A DNA stretch of 64,000 nucleotides from Bacillota bacterium. GTDB lineage: Bacteria; Bacillota; Sulfobacillia; JAJZYS01; JAJYTV01. The number at the start of each line of letters is the position of its first letter. The stretch's first letter is position 1. A program made the translations under genes and the position numbers. Below are positions 51,679-61,110 of the stretch, one piece after another. The stretch lies in NCBI GenBank assembly GCA_021799275.1, contig JAJZAT010000013.1, forward strand, positions 1 through 64,000, in the 5' to 3' direction. The notes under the pieces are model-generated. The model saw only the letters and a list, made by a program, of their open reading frames with translations. It was not told the DNA's origin and ran no database searches.

Positions 51679-52404
51679 TCATTCGGCGAATCGCGGCCTC
51701 GTGTCGAGGAGCCAGGAGAGGTCCGACCCGACCGCGCGTTCCTCGGGGGCCTGCCCTCGCAGGAAGAGCCGTGCGCCTGCGGCCCCGCCGAGCACCGCTC
51801 GCTCGCCGGTGACGCGCAGCCAGGAACCTTCGCGCAGGCCGAGCACAGGGACATCGTTCTCCTCGAGGAACTGCAGCAGGCGCTCCTCGCGCGTCTCGCC
51901 CATATGGGTGCTCCCCGGCTGCGGATCGACGTAGTGCGGATTGATCTGGAACGGGATCAGGCCGATGGCGGCGAAGGACCCAGGCTCCACGATCGGCATG
52001 TCGTTGGTCGTCCGGATCGTAGGGCAGGCGACATTGGACCCGGCGCTGGCTCCAAGGTACGGGGTACCCTGGCTCACCTGCGTCCGAATGGGATCGAGTG
52101 CGCCCAGGTCGCGCAACGCGCGCACGAGCCGGAACGTGTTGCCGCCGCCGACGAAGATCGCCTCGGCCGCACGCACGGCGGCAGGCAGGTCCTGCTGGCG
52201 GTGGGCCCCCTCGACATCAATGCCCAGAGGCGCCATCGCCTCCTGCATCCGCCGGGTGTAGGCGTCATGGTCTTTGCCGGCGAACGGCAAGAAGAGTATC
52301 CGCCTGCGCCCGCCCATGACCGAAGCGATCTCCTCGCGGGCGTGCTCCAGGAAGCCGCGTCCGAACACGTAGGAATTCGACATGAGCAGCAGTTCACGTG
52401 GCAT
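51679..52404 (-). CDS. pepE: peptidase E (alpha-aspartyl dipeptidase, S51)
   Basis: Serine peptidase that hydrolyses Asp-X dipeptides, 241 aa. Diagnostic blocks are EAIFVGGGNTFRLVRAL, the nucleophile elbow YLGASAGSNVACPTIRTTNDMPI, and the His in FQINPHYVDPQPGSTHMGETRE. ATG 52404 follows a G-rich AGGGTGGGG. It lies 67 bases downstream of upp on the same strand. Adds to the peptide-using enzyme set; recycles aspartyl dipeptides. Confidence 0.9.
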   Translation of the reverse strand: MPRELLLMSNSYVFGRGFLEHAREEIASVMGGRRRILFLPFAGKDHDAYTRRMQEAMAPLGIDVEGAHRQQDLPAAVRAAEAIFVGGGNTFRLVRALRDLGALDPIRTQVSQGTPYLGASAGSNVACPTIRTTNDMPIVEPGSFAAIGLIPFQINPHYVDPQPGSTHMGETREERLLQFLEENDVPVLGLREGSWLRVTGERAVLGGAAGARLFLRGQAPEERAVGSDLSWLLDTRPRFAE

Positions 52405-52471
52405 GGGACCCCACCCTCTCTCTCGGCGCTCGCCGGTGGGATGATCGGCAGCGCCTTGCAGCGCGCCCCGC

Positions 52472-53098
52472 CTAGAGCGTTCCGAACAGCCGGTCGCCCG
52501 CGTCGCCGAGGCCCGGCACGATGTAGGCATCCTGGTTCAGGTGGCTATCGAGCGCCGCCCCGAACATCGGCACGTCGGGATGCGCCGCCGCGACGGCCCG
52601 AACACCTTCGGGCGCCGCCACAAGGCAGATGAGGCGCAGGCTTCTCACGCCGACGGATTTGAGCAGGTCGAGCCCCGCCACCGCCGAACCGCCGGTCGCG
52701 AGCATCGGATCGAGCAGCAGGACGTCGCGCCCGGCGATGTCTGCCGGAAGCTTGCGGTAATACTCAACCGGCTGGTGGGTCTCATGGTCGCGGTAGAGTC
52801 CGATGTGCCCGACCGACGCCTCCGGCATCACCCGCAGGATGCCGTCGGACATGCCGAGGCCCGCGCGCAGGATCGGCACCAGGACCGGCTGGCCGTTCCT
52901 CAGCCGGACGCCGCTCGCGGCCGCGACCGGCGTCTGGACGCTGACGGTCTCGAGGGGCAGGTCGCGCAGTGCCTCGTACGCCAGCAGCACCGACACCTCG
53001 GCCAGCAGGGCGCGGAACTCCTTCGGGCTCGTCGAGACGTCGCGCAGCAGGCGGAGCTTCTCCTGCACGAGCGGGTGGTCGACCGGCGTGAACTCCAA
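52472..53098 (-). CDS. upp: uracil phosphoribosyltransferase
   Basis: Salvage enzyme that makes UMP from uracil and PRPP. 208 aa with [53 protein letters not shown], the PRPP loop [23 protein letters not shown], and the uracil-binding end [20 protein letters not shown] 53098 is 6 bases past AAGGAGGT. In many Bacillota upp neighbours a uracil permease; here permeases of the APC family are near, not uracil types. Full-length and surely functional. Confidence 0.95.
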
Positions 53099-54518: not shown

Positions 54519-55409
54519 TCAATCGGCGGGTGCCGCGGGCCGGTCGGCCGCCCTGCCCGTGCCCACGCGGACGATGCGCGGACTCGCCCGGTAGCTGTCG
54601 ACGCCCATGTCGAACCGCTCCAGCCGCCCGTCGGGCCATTCCCTCTCCAGCCAGGAGTGGACGACGACGCCCTCCTGGCCTGGCGCGTCGACCTCCTCCT
54701 TGCCCTTGGGCAGGTCCGGGTCGGAGTTGCGGATCGTGTAGAAGGGGAAGCGCCGCAGTTCCTTGTGGATCCAGCGCACCTCCGGCGGCTGACGGGTGCC
54801 ATAGAATTCCGCCGTCACGCGGCCGCCCGTAGCCCGGGTGACGAGGCGCAGCGGGCCGCCCGTGTCGTTGCGGATGCGCAGGTCGAGGGCGCCGTACGAG
54901 ATCGTCGCGTCCTCGCCGGGCAGAAGGTACGGCACCGTAAGGCCGTGCTGGTGGCGCTCCTCGATGTCGAGCCCCGCCCGCAGGGCCGCTTCGTAGATGG
55001 TCGTGGCGACCTGGCAGACTCCGCCGCCGTACCCCGGTACGATGCGGTCGCCGATAAAGACGCGCCCGACCTTGTAGCCGCGGGCCCTGCTGGACTCACC
55101 CAACTGGCCGTTGAACGAGAAGACGCCGCCCGGCGGAATCAAGGTCCCGCACAGGCGTTTCGACGCGAGGGCCATGTTGAAGTTGCGCCCGGGCGCCGAC
55201 GTCGGATAGTCGGTCGTCATGTGCCCGATCAGACCCCAGGCCGTGCCGGGGTCGTCCGGCTGCCCAGGCCCGCAGGCAGGCTCGGCCTGCGCAGGGGAAC
55301 CTGTGACGGCCACCGACGGCGCCGCACCGCCGGCTGGAGCGGTCGCGAAGCGGGGCGGCCAAAGGGAGAGCAGCAAAAGCGCCAAAAAGGGCCAGGACGC
55401 GTGCGGCAT
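54519..55409 (-). CDS. VanW family secreted protein
   Basis: Exported VanW-domain protein of 296 aa. ATG 55409 has GGAGG 8 bases upstream and begins a signal peptide (MPHASWPFLALLLLSLWPPRFATA); GTG three codons earlier lies on the ribosome site. The VanW domain is visible as NFNMALASKRLCGTLIPPGGVFSFNGQLGE, YKVGRVFIGDRIVPGYGGGVCQVATTIYEAALRAGL and NDTGGPLRLVTRATGGRVTAEFYGT. A Lys/Glu-rich C-terminal tail follows. VanW occurs in some glycopeptide-resistance clusters but mostly as a general envelope protein in Bacillota; no resistance genes are near, so resistance is not implied. Confidence 0.87.
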   Translation of the reverse strand: MPHASWPFLALLLLSLWPPRFATAPAGGAAPSVAVTGSPAQAEPACGPGQPDDPGTAWGLIGHMTTDYPTSAPGRNFNMALASKRLCGTLIPPGGVFSFNGQLGESSRARGYKVGRVFIGDRIVPGYGGGVCQVATTIYEAALRAGLDIEERHQHGLTVPYLLPGEDATISYGALDLRIRNDTGGPLRLVTRATGGRVTAEFYGTRQPPEVRWIHKELRRFPFYTIRNSDPDLPKGKEEVDAPGQEGVVVHSWLEREWPDGRLERFDMGVDSYRASPRIVRVGTGRAADRPAAPAD

Positions 55410-55454
55410 GGGGGCCACCTCCGCGTCTTAGCATCACCAAGTTTGTCCTGGGGC

Positions 55455-56043: not shown

Positions 56044-56214
56044 TCAGCTGCTCCTCCGCCGGGCGTCGTAGAGGCGGGCGACGCCGAGCGCCATAAAAAG
56101 GACGCCGAAGAGGTCGTAGAGCAGGCTGCCGTGCTCCACGATGCCGCGCACCAGGATGATCAGGCCGAGCACGAGGGCAACGAGGCCGATCGCCACGACG
56201 AAGCCGCGCTTCAT
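56044..56214 (-). CDS. 56-aa membrane protein in a permease/USP operon
   Basis: Short protein with two hydrophobic helices (FVVAIGLVALVLGLIILV and LLYDLFGVLFMALGVARLY) and a basic tail RRRSS. Its ATG overlaps the permease stop by four bases (ATGA), and its TGA is one base before the USP start. Below the usual length for automatic calling, but hydrophobicity, codon use and tight coupling support it. Likely an accessory subunit of the APC permease or of the USP protein. Confidence 0.7.
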   Translation of the reverse strand: MKRGFVVAIGLVALVLGLIILVRGIVEHGSLLYDLFGVLFMALGVARLYDARRRSS

Positions 56215-57779
56215 GTGCTCTGGCCCCCTCTGGCGGCCTTGTCCGCGAGGGCCTGTTCATACTCCGCCAGGAGCTCGAACTCCTCGGCCTCGCGCAGGGT
56301 GTGCCGCTGCTGCGCCTCCCAGTCGCGCGGCAGGGCGCGCCACGGCGGCAAGCCCGCCTTGCGGCGGTAGATGTAGTAGAAGAGCAGCATGACGAGCACC
56401 CAGGCGGGACCCGCGATGCGGCCGATCGCGTGGGTCAGGATGACCTCGAAGAGGATGGTTCCGACGCCGAGGAAACCGATCACGGCCAGGATCGGGAATG
56501 AGATCCTGGGCGCCCCATCGTCCTGACCCTTCAAGGCGATGTTGAGCGGCATGCGGTACGGACGCGGCGTGAAGGGGTCCTTGAAGCGCAGCACGATCAG
56601 CGAGATGAAGACGAGAAGGTAGCCGAACGTGGCGCCGAAGGCGTACATGTTCGCGAGCGTGTTCATCGCGCCTCCCGAGAGGAAGGCGAGAATCGCCTGC
56701 ACCACCGCGACCCCCGAGAACACGATGATCGTGCGGTACGGCGTGTGGTAGCGCGGATGCACGGCCGAGAACCATTCAGGCAGCAGCTGGAACGTGCTCA
56801 TCGAGTAGGTGAGACGCGACGCGCTCATGACGCCAGAGTTCGAGGAGATGAGCACGATGACGCCGCCGATCAGGGCCGTCATCGGTGCGGCGATGGCGCC
56901 GATGATCGGGATCTTCTGCGCCACGATGGCGATCGGATCGCCGGCGTGCGCGCCGAGCACCTGCCAGGGCAGCAGGCCCATGCCGAGCACCGAGAACGCG
57001 AGCGCGAAGATGAGGACGTTCAGCACGAGCGAGATCGACGTTCTCGGGACGATCGTCGCCGGTCGTCTCGTCTCCTGCGACACCTGCGAGATCGACTCGA
57101 GCCCGACGAACGAGATGATGGCAAGCGAAGAGCCGTACATGAAGTTGTGCATGTCCGGAAACTGCAGGCGCATCTGCAAAAGCATCTGGTTAGGATCCCA
57201 CGCGAAGACGAAGCCGAAGATGACGATGACGACCTGGCCGATAATGGCGACAACGCCCAGCACCTCGTTGATGCGCGACGAGATCTTGATGCCGACGTAG
57301 TTGATGGCGATCAGGAAGCCGATGATGACCAGGGTCTCGACGAGCCAAAGCACGTTGACACCGACGAAGGGGCCGATATTCACCACAAAGGACTGGATGT
57401 TGACGCCGAGCGACGGCAGAAAGAAGTTGAAGTAGCCGGACGAGGAGACGGCGAAAAGCGAGATGTCGATCGTATAGTCGAGCAGCAGCGCGGAACCGCA
57501 GACGAAGCCCCAGACGTCGCCAAGCCCGCGCAGCGTGAAGTACTGGCCGCCACCGGCCACCGGATAGCTCGAAGCTAGTTCCGTGTAGGCCAGACCGACC
57601 AGCAGATAGACGATCCCCGCCACGGCGAAAGCGACGGGCGTCGCGCCCATGGCGGCGCCAGCCACGAGGCCGAGCGCCGTGTAGATGTCGGCGCCGACAT
57701 CCGCGTAGCCCCACATGAAGGAACCCCAGACGGTAACGTCGCGGCGTAACGCGTTGCCGGCTTCTTCGGGCTGACCCAC
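56211..57779 (-). CDS. APC family amino acid permease
   Basis: 522-aa transporter with about twelve membrane segments. The first helix opens with ALRRDVTVWGSFMWGYADVGADIYTALGLVAGAAMGATP, the GLAYTELASSYPVAGGGQYFTLRGLGDVWGF motif (helix 3) is typical, and IISFVGLESISQVSQETRRPATIVPRTS marks the conserved loop after helix 6. The C-terminal 70 residues are hydrophilic. GTG 57779 follows GGGGAGG; the in-frame extension upstream lacks homology. First gene of a unit with the 56-aa protein and the USP protein, expressed from a promoter at 57818-57846. Probably amino-acid uptake. Confidence 0.88.
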   Translation of the reverse strand: MGQPEEAGNALRRDVTVWGSFMWGYADVGADIYTALGLVAGAAMGATPVAFAVAGIVYLLVGLAYTELASSYPVAGGGQYFTLRGLGDVWGFVCGSALLLDYTIDISLFAVSSSGYFNFFLPSLGVNIQSFVVNIGPFVGVNVLWLVETLVIIGFLIAINYVGIKISSRINEVLGVVAIIGQVVIVIFGFVFAWDPNQMLLQMRLQFPDMHNFMYGSSLAIISFVGLESISQVSQETRRPATIVPRTSISLVLNVLIFALAFSVLGMGLLPWQVLGAHAGDPIAIVAQKIPIIGAIAAPMTALIGGVIVLISSNSGVMSASRLTYSMSTFQLLPEWFSAVHPRYHTPYRTIIVFSGVAVVQAILAFLSGGAMNTLANMYAFGATFGYLLVFISLIVLRFKDPFTPRPYRMPLNIALKGQDDGAPRISFPILAVIGFLGVGTILFEVILTHAIGRIAGPAWVLVMLLFYYIYRRKAGLPPWRALPRDWEAQQRHTLREAEEFELLAEYEQALADKAARGGQST

Positions 57780-57817
57780 GAGACCCCTCCCCTGGCGACC
57801 CGGAAAGGACCTCCAAT

Positions 57818-57846
57818 ACACTACACTGCATGCCTGCGGGCCGCAA
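57818..57846 (-). promoter_or_regulatory. promoter of the permease-USP operon
   Basis: On the minus strand TTGCGG (57846-57841), a 17-base spacer and TAGTGT (57823-57818), about 38 bases before GTG 57779. The 218-base gap to the divergent asnB-type gene holds no other gene; nothing equally clear was found for the plus direction. Confidence 0.5.
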
Positions 57847-57997
57847 GCGTGCAATCCGTCAGCCCAGGTCCGCTACCGCGTGTGAAGACGCCTACATAGG
57901 GCGACCATGGCGCTGCGGAGATGCGCATTTTACCGCTAAGCGCTATCCTGGATGGGACCTGCCATCTTGCAGGATACATTGGGAGGGATTCTTCGCC

Positions 57998-60604
57998 GTG
58001 TGCGGTATCGCCGGCTTCTTCGGCCCTCCGGACCATGAGCTGCTCGAGCGCATGAACGCGGCGATCTGGCATCGCGGTCCCGACGACCACGGCTTCAGCG
58101 AGAGTCCCGCCATGAGCATCGGCATGCGCCGCCTGAGCATCATCGACGTCCAGGGCGGGCACCAGCCGATGGAGACGGAGGACGGGCAGGTCCGCCTCGT
58201 GTACAACGGCGAGATCTACAATTACCGCGATGTGCGCGCGGAACTGATCGAGAAGGGCCGCCGCTTCCATACCGAATGCGACACCGAAGTGCTCCTGCAG
58301 GCCTACGCCGAGTGGGGCACAGACTGCTTTCGGCGCCTGAACGGCATGTGGGCGGCGGCCATCGCCGACCTGCGCGAGGACCGCCTCGTGCTCTGCCGTG
58401 ACCATTTCGGCATCAAGCCGCTCTACTACGCCCGAGCCGGCGAGCGCATCCTGTTCGCCTCGGAGGTCAAGTCGCTCTGGCAGGACCCGGCATTGCCGCG
58501 CGCCGTCAACGAGCAGATGGTCTTCGAGTACCTGGTGCAGGGCCTCCACGACCACAGCCCCGAGACGTTCTTTCAGGGCGTCCGCCACGTGCCCGCCGCG
58601 AGCTACATCGTGATCCAGGACGGTAGGATCGAAGACCCCGTGAGCTACTGGCAGCCTCAGCTCCGCCGCGACGGCGCGATGACGCCGGAGGCCTTCCACG
58701 ACCTTTTCAAAAAGTCGGTCGCGCGCCGCCTCGTGAGCGACGTACCGGTGGGCGCGGCGCTTTCGGGCGGCCTCGACTCGACGACCATCGTCGCGCTGAT
58801 GACAGACCTCCTGCGTGAGCACCTGCCGGACGCCGCGTCGCTGCGCGGCCACGTCAAGACTTTCTCCGCCGTATTCGACGGCGACCCCATCGACGAGCGT
58901 GCCTACATCGAGGAGGCGATCGCCAAGACGGGCGCCGACACGACCTACACCAGCCCGAGCTCCCAGACTTTCGTCGACGAGATGGAAGACATGGTCTGGC
59001 ACCTCGACGAGCCCGTCGTCAGCACCGGCCCCTACGCGCAGTGGTGCGTGATGCGCACCGCAAAGGAGCAGGTCAAGGTGGTTCTGGACGGGCAGGGCGG
59101 CGACGAGCTCCTGGCCGGCTACGTGCCGTACCAGATGGTCTACCTGCGCCAGCTCTGGCGTCAGCGCAAGCTCGGCAGGCTGTTGCGCGAAGCCGTGCTT
59201 GCCCGCGACGTGATCTGGCCCGTCGTGCGCCGGACTTTGCGCCAGCGTAAGGGCGCCATACCGGCGCGTTCGCTGCTCAAGGACGCCTTCCTCGCCGCCC
59301 ACCACCCGGCCCTGGACACCAGGCCCGACGACAACCTCAAGGAACGTCTCAGGCAGGATCTCACCACCTACAGCCTGCCTGCCCTCCTGCGCTACGAGGA
59401 CCGCAACTCGATGGCCCACTCGATCGAGTCGCGGGTCCCCTACCTCGATCAGGAACTCGTCGAAGCCATCCTCGGCCTGCCCGACGGCGAGATCATCCGC
59501 GACGGCTGGAGCCGCATCATCCTGCGCGAATCGATGCGCCGCCTCCTGCCGGACAGGATCCGCCTGCGCCGCTGGAAGGTGGGCTTCACGACGCCGGAGT
59601 CACGCTGGCTTTTCGCCCGCCGCGCGGTGTTCGAGAGCCTGTTCCGCTCGCCGCTCTTCCAGAGCCGGCCATACTGGCAGGGAGCTCGCATCGCCCAGGC
59701 CTTCCGCGACGCGGCACAGGGACGCGCGCCCTCGAGCCTCCTCTTCTGGCGCGTGATCAACGTCGAACTCTGGCTGCGCGTCTTCTTCGAGGGGGGCGGA
59801 CGCTCCACCGAGGCTGGCACGCACTTCACGGAGGTCGGCGACCGCCGCTTCGCCGAGGCGGCCAGCGAGGCCGCGAAGGCGGCTTTCGCCCGCTACCGGC
59901 CCAACTGGGGCCGCCACCTCTTCGCGGGCGCCAAGGGACAGGTTTTCCTGCGCGCCCCCGTCAAGACACCGCTCGTCGAAAAGGGCGACGACCTCCAGGC
60001 CATCGTGCGCGACGCGGTGGCGGGCGATCTCCAGCCGGGGGACGTCATTGCCATCAGCGAGAAGATCGTCGCGATCAGCCAGGGACGCTCCTACCCGGTG
60101 GCCGAGATCCATCCCCGCCCCTTGGCCCGCTTCCTCACGCGGTTCGTCCGCAAGACGCCGCACGGCATCGGCCTCGGCATCCCCGAGACGATGGAGCTCG
60201 CGGTGCGCGAGGTAGGTGCCAGCCGCATCCTGTTCGCGGCGGCTGTAGCGGCCCTCGCCCGGGTCTTCGGCAGGAAGGGCGTCTTCTACGACCTCCTGGG
60301 TCCTCAGGCCTCGGCGATCGACGGACCGACGCGCGGCACCATCCCGCCCTACAACACGCACGCCAAGCTGGCGCCCCTGAACCCCGACGGCGCGGCGAAG
60401 GATCTTGCCGCCGCCCTCGGCGAGGGCATCGGCGTCGCGATCATCGACGCGAACGACATCTCGGTGAACATCCTGGGCGCGACGCCCGACGTCGACCGCG
60501 AACTCGTGCGGCATCTCCTCTTCGACAACCCCCTTGGGCAGGGTCACGAGCAGACGCCGGTCGCGCTCCTGCGTCGCGTCGGCGAGGTGCAGGAGATCGC
60601 CTGA
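57998..60604 (+). CDS. asnB: asparagine synthetase B fused to a CofE-like (F420-0:gamma-glutamyl ligase) domain
   Basis: One uninterrupted 868-aa frame. Residues 1-215 are a class II glutaminase (nucleophile Cys2 in VCGIAGFFG, then RRLSIIDVQGGHQP, YNGEIYNY); 240-610 an asparagine-synthetase ATP-pyrophosphatase (PVGAALSGGLDSTTIVAL, DGQGGDELLAGYVPY, DRNSMAHSIESRVPYLD, WKVGFTTPESRW). A 40-residue linker leads to residues 655-868, which look like the CofE/PF01996 gamma-glutamyl-ligase family: VKTPLVEKGDDLQAIV, GDVIAISEKIVAISQGR, GPTRGTIPPYNTHAKLAPLNPDGAAKDLAAAL, AIIDANDISVNILG. GTG 57998 follows GGGAGGG by 10 bases. Joining an amide-forming enzyme to a glutamyl ligase is unusual; the product is unknown. 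Confidence 0.88.
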   Translation: MCGIAGFFGPPDHELLERMNAAIWHRGPDDHGFSESPAMSIGMRRLSIIDVQGGHQPMETEDGQVRLVYNGEIYNYRDVRAELIEKGRRFHTECDTEVLLQAYAEWGTDCFRRLNGMWAAAIADLREDRLVLCRDHFGIKPLYYARAGERILFASEVKSLWQDPALPRAVNEQMVFEYLVQGLHDHSPETFFQGVRHVPAASYIVIQDGRIEDPVSYWQPQLRRDGAMTPEAFHDLFKKSVARRLVSDVPVGAALSGGLDSTTIVALMTDLLREHLPDAASLRGHVKTFSAVFDGDPIDERAYIEEAIAKTGADTTYTSPSSQTFVDEMEDMVWHLDEPVVSTGPYAQWCVMRTAKEQVKVVLDGQGGDELLAGYVPYQMVYLRQLWRQRKLGRLLREAVLARDVIWPVVRRTLRQRKGAIPARSLLKDAFLAAHHPALDTRPDDNLKERLRQDLTTYSLPALLRYEDRNSMAHSIESRVPYLDQELVEAILGLPDGEIIRDGWSRIILRESMRRLLPDRIRLRRWKVGFTTPESRWLFARRAVFESLFRSPLFQSRPYWQGARIAQAFRDAAQGRAPSSLLFWRVINVELWLRVFFEGGGRSTEAGTHFTEVGDRRFAEAASEAAKAAFARYRPNWGRHLFAGAKGQVFLRAPVKTPLVEKGDDLQAIVRDAVAGDLQPGDVIAISEKIVAISQGRSYPVAEIHPRPLARFLTRFVRKTPHGIGLGIPETMELAVREVGASRILFAAAVAALARVFGRKGVFYDLLGPQASAIDGPTRGTIPPYNTHAKLAPLNPDGAAKDLAAALGEGIGVAIIDANDISVNILGATPDVDRELVRHLLFDNPLGQGHEQTPVALLRRVGEVQEIA

Positions 60605-60660: not shown

Positions 60661-61110
60661 GTGACCGTATTGGACCGGCACATCGTCTCATCCGGTGTCG
60701 TGGTCGTCGAGAATTCCTCTGTCTTGCTGGTGGCGGAACGCGGACGGTGGGGGCTGCCGAAGGGCGGCGTGGAGCCGGATGAGCCTCTCATCACCACGGC
60801 AATCCGCGAGGCCCGGGAGGAAACCGGACTCGTCGTCGAGGTTCGCGGCCTCGCGTTCGTGACGGAGTTCAGGCGAAGCGAGTGGAACGAACATCACGTG
60901 CAGATGTACTTTGCGGCACAGGTTGCCGGAGGCTCACTTCTGCCGCGGGACCCCGATGGAATCGTCAGGGAAGCCCGGTTTGTCCCCGTAGACGCTCTGC
61001 GCCACTATCTCAAGTTTCGTCCACGTCTTCTGCCACTCGAACAGTGGTTGGCGGATGGGGTAGCTCGCCATCATTACTTCGATCTGGACATCGAACCCGT
61101 GGAAGTCTGA
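60661..61110 (+). CDS. Nudix hydrolase
   Basis: 149-aa Nudix protein that hydrolyses a nucleoside diphosphate linked to another group. The Nudix box is complete: KGGVEPDEPLITTAIREAR followed by EETGLVVEV, giving G-x5-E-x7-REUxEExGU. The fold starts VVVVENSSVLLVAERGRWGLPKGG. GTG 60661 lies close to AGGAGG (3 bases); TTG 60670 is the alternative with long spacing. It follows the AsnB fusion gene by 56 bases with only a weak 6-pair hairpin between, so co-transcription is possible. Substrate not readable. GC content looks slightly below its neighbours. Confidence 0.85.
   Translation: MTVLDRHIVSSGVVVVENSSVLLVAERGRWGLPKGGVEPDEPLITTAIREAREETGLVVEVRGLAFVTEFRRSEWNEHHVQMYFAAQVAGGSLLPRDPDGIVREARFVPVDALRHYLKFRPRLLPLEQWLADGVARHHYFDLDIEPVEV

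Follow-up and report, generated by a model that had tools for sequence, protein, structure and literature searches.

The fused gene and its layout

Within the window, by which we mean the whole 64,000-nucleotide stretch of DNA that was analysed, an uninterrupted frame that starts at a GTG codon encodes a protein of 868 residues, beginning (M)CGIAGFFG, in which an amidotransferase resembling asparagine synthetase (AsnB) is joined to a C-terminal domain resembling CofE. The stop-to-stop frame that surrounds the gene corresponds to 955 amino acids. The gene, its presumed ribosome binding site and the regions of its product are as follows:

57998..60604, plus strand: fusion gene, AsnB-like amidotransferase and CofE-like domain, 868 aa (open frame; Pfam and NCBIfam matches; one frame in 45 loci)
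57981..57987, plus strand: Shine-Dalgarno-like GGGAGGG, ending 10 nt before the GTG (direct sequence reading)
57998..58477, plus strand: N-terminal Ntn glutaminase domain with Cys2 as nucleophile (GATase_7 at residues 44-160; invariant columns)
58694..59779, plus strand: ATP-pyrophosphatase synthetase domain with the SGGLDS loop (residues 256-261), Lys527, and Gln366 within DGQGGDE (Asn_synthase at residues 233-594; alignments)
59780..59932, plus strand: variable linker, about residues 595-645 (gappy alignment region; frame under selection)
59933..60601, plus strand: CofE-like domain, about residues 646-868 (PF01996; fold; alignment)

In Pfam, the Asn_synthase match has an E-value of 1e-75, and the F420_ligase family (PF01996) is matched at residues 655-815 with 52 bits against a cut-off of 25, this last match covering only positions 2-146 of the 218 in the profile, or approximately two thirds. 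A model of the full-length protein (pLDDT 89.9, pTM 0.90) resembles E. coli AsnB in its N-terminal part (1ct9, Z 37.7) and CofE across residues 648-862 (Z 13.3). A preliminary description of this locus had named a complete asparagine synthetase fused to a CofE-like domain, and had pointed to Cys2 and to an SGGLDST motif in the former; both of those elements are present in the sequence, and the fusion and the two folds are borne out, but the phrase ‘complete asparagine synthetase’ has become doubtful, given that an invariant glutamine takes the place of a glutamate. A scan for promoters and terminators and a search for repeats at the gene yielded nothing of note.

Reality and distribution of the fusion

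When 84,980 species genomes were scanned for relatives, 80 loci emerged, 45 of which contain an uninterrupted frame of 855-990 amino acids that spans both domains. The metagenome-assembled genomes (MAGs) that bear the fusion are labelled as Bacillota, Actinomycetota (including Thermoleophilia and Acidimicrobiaceae), Dormibacterota, Chloroflexota and Ca. Roizmanbacteria, and an even sample of the class to which the host of the window belongs contains the full-length protein in 20 of 151 genomes. The family is also kept in genomes of only 0.7-1.2 Mb, in two cases as the sole AsnB-family protein. Two independent MAGs at 96% identity possess the identical single frame, and changes at third codon positions predominate in the N-terminal part, the linker and the C-terminal part alike.

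The fusion is therefore real, and not an artefact of sequencing. The existence of split versions in three loci (L054, L055 and L057) aside, no support was found for a sequencing frameshift having joined two genes, an explanation whose probability we consider negligible and which was rejected, since the same single frame recurs in 45 loci, most of them from independent assemblies, and since purifying selection acts on the frame through the linker. The continuity of the frame, which the preliminary description had put forward for checking, is thereby confirmed. The fusion is no oddity of one genome, but represents a conserved family, old and widespread, that is found in at least five phyla.

In the three split loci the domains are encoded by separate genes that lie approximately 5 nucleotides apart (L055) or overlap (L054 and L057). 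A tree of 47 CofE-like domains places the fusions and split copies in one clade (95/99), apart from the stand-alone copies, with the split pairs of L055 and L057 branching with the Roizmanbacteria fusions. Separate, adjacent homologues had been named beforehand as an observation that would speak against the fusion, and they do occur; but the genes concerned touch or overlap one another, and their place in the tree is inside the fusion clade, so that they support a functional partnership rather than refute it. The partnership of the two halves is conserved, whether they are fused or split.

The AsnB-like half

The glutaminase residues (Cys2, N70-G71-E72 and D95) are invariant in 39 fusions, as are the residues of the SGGxDS pyrophosphate loop (S256-S261). 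The synthetase motif reads [DN]GQ[GA]xDE in every readable member, and Gln366, invariant in 39 of 39 fusions, aligns with Glu364 of human asparagine synthetase (ASNS), where the E. coli motif is SGEGSDE; the glutamate that is essential in asparagine synthetases is thus absent from the fusion. Since both the E364A and E364Q variants of the human enzyme are inactive on aspartate (PMC6748925), the invariance of Gln366 indicates that the fusion probably does not act on that substrate. Two other AsnB-family proteins of the host genome retain the glutamate (SGESADE and SGEGADE).

When compared with the asparagine synthase family TIGR01536 of NCBIfam, the fusion scores 442 bits against a cut-off of 267, and in 13 of the 29 carrier genomes the fusion, or the AsnB half of a split pair, is the only protein assigned to that family. 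In 12 of those 13 no asparaginyl-tRNA synthetase (AsnRS) was found above the curated cut-off, a count that is limited by the incompleteness of MAGs and that, within this limit, argues against a housekeeping supply of asparagine. The host genome itself has an AsnRS.

AsnB-like proteins that display the DGQGxDE motif and lack a CofE-like domain, and thus represent an AsnB subfamily in which glutamine replaces the catalytic glutamate, occur at loci L056-L082 in archaea (Methanoregula and others) and in bacteria; many of them lie among genes for glycosyltransferases and nucleotide-sugar metabolism.

The CofE-like domain

An AlphaFold2 model of residues 641-868 (pLDDT 93.3) superimposes on Af-CofE (2phn) with a Z score of 15.5 over 184 residues, at 3.2 A and 22% identity; the next, unrelated chain reaches a Z score of only 3.8, leaving Af-CofE as the only confident match. 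The PF01996 fold that had been claimed for residues 655-868, and that structural modelling was to confirm or overturn, is therefore recovered. Because the structural match stops at residue 222 of Af-CofE, the arginine of that enzyme that stacks on the F420 ring (Arg234; PMC10861534) is without a counterpart in the fusion. At the level of sequence, a phmmer search of the PDB with a stand-alone paralogue produced chance matches only, and a profile of 47 family members was needed to reach 2phn (E 5e-7); that same profile, when compared with a profile of nine true CofE/FbiB proteins, gave an hhalign probability of 98%.

The signature motifs of CofE are almost entirely absent from the family. Each of the five is present in 9 of 9 true CofE/FbiB proteins taken from the carrier genomes, and the corresponding counts among the 47 family members are zero for VSKxEG, HGFxCAN[AS]G[VI]DxSN, SDTFGRxWRxG and DExAxAxExxMxK, and one for DxRG. 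The family possesses motifs of its own ([IVL]D[GD], Dx[NS]D and NPx[GA][QN]), which are found in 47 of 47 members. The score of the fusion against F420_cofE (TIGR01916) is 33.3 bits, as compared to a cut-off of 180.65 and to 284 bits for the true CofE of one carrier genome. On these comparisons the domain is not a CofE, but forms a separate subfamily with the CofE fold.

The charged residues R697, D775, D817 and D820 are invariant and common to the fusions and their stand-alone relatives, as is the conservation of N844 and P845. D817 aligns with the aspartate of the DT motif of CofE, and the N-terminal half of the domain aligns as well; the placement by hhalign of D775 relative to the aspartate of GVDxSN is uncertain by about 4 residues. 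The conserved charged residues suggest a working site, but the domain, having lost the signature motifs of CofE, may lack ligase activity or any catalysis.

Relationship to coenzyme F420

For the host genome, genome-wide statements rest on family searches, which found no convincing CofD, but only a 28-bit match to TIGR01819 in a protein of another PF01933 branch. The preliminary remark that the window contains no other F420 genes can thus be extended, in the case of CofD, to the whole genome. CofD is encoded by 12 of the 29 carrier genomes (nine scoring above the curated cut-off, two slightly under it, and one cut by a contig end), and all 12 encode, beside CofD, a second and canonical PF01996 protein (CofE/FbiB, 191-251 bits); in no case does CofD lie beside the fusion. 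The other 17 carriers, including the host and the small-genome carriers, are without a convincing CofD, yet keep the fusion or the split pair. These two patterns show that F420 ligation in these organisms is not the task of the C-terminal domain.

The fusion almost certainly does not act on F420, as the preliminary description had suspected and as both the co-occurrence of CofD with CofE and the loss of the CofE motifs now bear out. That the domain glutamylates F420-0 or another deazaflavin would agree with its CofE fold and with a PF01996 match above the gathering cut-off; it is nevertheless a very improbable reading, considering that the host and 16 other carriers are without a convincing CofD, that a separate canonical CofE/FbiB is present wherever CofD is strong, that the F420-stacking Arg234 (PMC10861534) has no equivalent, and that the TIGR01916 score is 33 bits against 181. 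A role in F420 synthesis was rejected on the grounds of that co-occurrence and motif loss.

Genomic neighbourhood and stand-alone relatives

The genes that immediately flank the fusion in the window are:

60661..61110, plus strand: NUDIX hydrolase, 56 bp downstream of the fusion, and present there in the genome of the window alone
56211..57854, minus strand: APC-type amino-acid permease, divergent, a conserved neighbour in close relatives only

The NUDIX hydrolase, which is not next to the fusion in other loci, is for that reason probably not part of its system. In close relatives the fusion is accompanied by amino-acid permeases, by a universal stress protein and by a VanW-like protein; across phyla the fusion loci have no neighbour in common, their surroundings varying by lineage, and a search among them for a conserved operon from which the substrate could be read was negative. 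A class A penicillin-binding protein lies downstream in Dormibacterota/Chloroflexota loci (L018; L025 and L049 have this gene cluster too). Roizmanbacteria-like loci have LysM/LemA/M48 genes together with gatA/gatCAB near the fusion. Such proximity to gatA/gatCAB is seen in small-genome loci and one Bacillota MAG, and gatCAB or gatA is nearby in L045, L047, L055 and L057.

Farther from the fusion in the window, the VanW-like protein that is conserved upstream in close relatives contains a G5 domain (54519-55418, minus strand), and a peptidase of family S51 (PF03575, E 3.5e-57) is encoded at 51679-52530 on the minus strand, which by its motif resembles a dipeptidase E (Asp-X dipeptidase).

Besides the fusion, the host genome encodes a stand-alone protein of this CofE-like subfamily, whose gene directly follows a GT2 glycosyltransferase gene on the same strand and converges with a gene for an N-acetylmuramoyl-L-alanine amidase. 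In other families of the host's class, Amidase_3 directly adjoins the stand-alone copy in four loci (L110, L111, L112 and L116). There are also stand-alone CofE-like proteins that have no AsnB partner, which implies a function of the domain itself.

A second and different type of fusion was found in L124 (7096-8754, plus strand), where Amidase_3 (N-acetylmuramoyl-L-alanine amidase) and the CofE-like domain share one frame of 553 amino acids.

Comparison with known systems

The fusion has the Cys2 Ntn glutaminase, the SGGLDS PP-loop and the overall fold of AsnB (TIGR01536; 1ct9, 6gq3), and differs from it in the substitution of Gln366 for the essential glutamate, in an aspartate (Asp364) at the position of the ribose-binding serine, and in the added domain. 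That added domain has the fold of CofE/FbiB (PF01996, TIGR01916; 2phn, 7uld), with which its N-terminal half and its DT-motif aspartate align, and differs in lacking the signature motifs and the C-terminal end that bears the F420-stacking arginine, and in being unlinked to F420 genes. Another CofE-related ligase that has been proposed to act outside F420, the putative folate gamma-glutamate ligase TIGR04132, also matches a true CofE, weakly; the fusion gave no match to it at E-values up to 0.01.

Several systems display a comparable logic. In the synthesis of NAGGN (N-acetylglutaminylglutamine amide), the amidotransferase AsnO and the ligase Ngg form a separate pair, and thus likewise bring a peptide ligase and an amidotransferase to bear on a single small acceptor (PMC8070244); Ngg, however, belongs to another protein family, and the fusion scores 313 bits against the TIGR03104 cut-off of 570. 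WbpS/WbqG (eps_aminotran_1, TIGR03108) are AsnB-like amidotransferases that form uronamides, and so use a substrate other than aspartate (PMC7468200); the fusion reaches 368 bits against that family's cut-off of 817, and lies outside glycan clusters in the window. The AsnB/LtsA relatives that amidate the mDAP of peptidoglycan have an extra loop in the substrate site (PMC8554201) and no CofE-like domain.

A literature search for the domain pair found no description in open papers, a result that does not prove that none exists, and the only paper found that contains ‘PF01996’ concerns F420.

Proposed function and alternative explanations

The reading that we tentatively prefer is that of a conserved bifunctional enzyme that acts on a carboxylate acceptor, neither F420 nor free aspartate. 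Sequence and model show that a glutaminase of the Ntn type and an ATP-pyrophosphatase loop, both intact, share one chain with a domain of the CofE fold. The glutaminase would free ammonia from glutamine, and the ammonia would be channelled to the synthetase site, where the carboxylate of a non-aspartate acceptor would be adenylated and converted to an amide; the CofE-like site, using a nucleotide, metal and (by homology) acyl-phosphate chemistry, would ligate an amino acid onto a carboxylate of that acceptor. The original suggestion that one acceptor is both amidated and glutamylated is supported as far as two putative sites, one amidating and one ligating, are concerned; as the domain is not a true CofE, gamma-glutamyl transfer in particular is suggested by its fold only. 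Counting against this explanation are, above all, the lost CofE motifs, as the C-terminal domain may not be catalytic at all, and also the proximity of gatA/gatCAB, which would fit asparagine metabolism as well.

Two other explanations assign the C-terminal domain a non-catalytic role, for which the loss of the CofE signatures speaks in both cases. The protein might be an asparagine synthetase that carries a regulatory, nucleotide- or amino-acid-sensing, or dimerising appendage. The score against TIGR01536, far above the equivalog cut-off, the gat genes near four of the loci, and the presence in the host of an AsnRS, which creates a need for free asparagine, all favour that explanation; we nonetheless judge it unlikely, if a serious contender, because the essential glutamate is replaced by an invariant glutamine, because the two glutamate-type paralogues of the host can supply asparagine, because 12 sole-AsnB carriers without an AsnRS over the cut-off have no obvious need of free asparagine for translation, and because charged residues common to the stand-alone copies argue against a bare scaffold. 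Alternatively, the protein might be an amidotransferase for a non-aspartate acceptor (such as a uronic acid or diaminopimelate) that the C-terminal domain only binds, an arrangement for which WbpS (PMC7468200) and the mDAP-amidating AsnB (PMC8554201) are precedents, and with which the DGQGxDE relatives that occur in glycan loci without the extra domain are in agreement; the stand-alone proteins without an AsnB partner, and hence with a function of their own, count against this explanation, which we judge rather unlikely.

With no conserved operon across phyla, the acceptor of the preferred bifunctional enzyme is a guess. A precursor of the cell envelope or peptidoglycan is weakly indicated as the leading candidate, mainly by the context of the stand-alone paralogues (which adjoin Amidase_3 or are fused to it, or have GT2 as a neighbour), with further hints in the class A penicillin-binding protein downstream of some fusions and in the DGQGxDE relatives at glycosyltransferase loci; a small amide-capped peptide, such as an osmolyte, would be the next choice. 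In its most specific form, the proposal would be of a hitherto undescribed bifunctional enzyme by which a single envelope acceptor (for example, a peptidoglycan or lipid-linked precursor) is both amidated and extended by an amino acid. The CofE fold would then have a new branch unconnected with F420, whose stand-alone relatives are paired with, and once fused to, an N-acetylmuramoyl-L-alanine amidase; stated so narrowly, the proposal is rather improbable.

The names that domain libraries give such proteins, asparagine synthase and F420-0 ligase, are probably both mistaken. In that event the number of F420 ligases in databases is too high, and an amide-forming chemistry that is widespread goes unseen. 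The family persists in genomes of 0.7-1.2 Mb, which suggests that its product may be of importance to those cells, and through its C-terminal domain one can examine what the CofE fold is capable of in the absence of F420.

Further occurrences of the CofE-like domain

A divergent CofE-like domain ends a TPR-repeat protein, in one frame, in L123 (1393-2814, minus strand). Genomes of the same genus (L121:8755-12474 and L122:7395-10380; G001:C162 and G005:C137) contain two to three successive stand-alone copies, not all of full length, a pattern that resembles duplication and decay.
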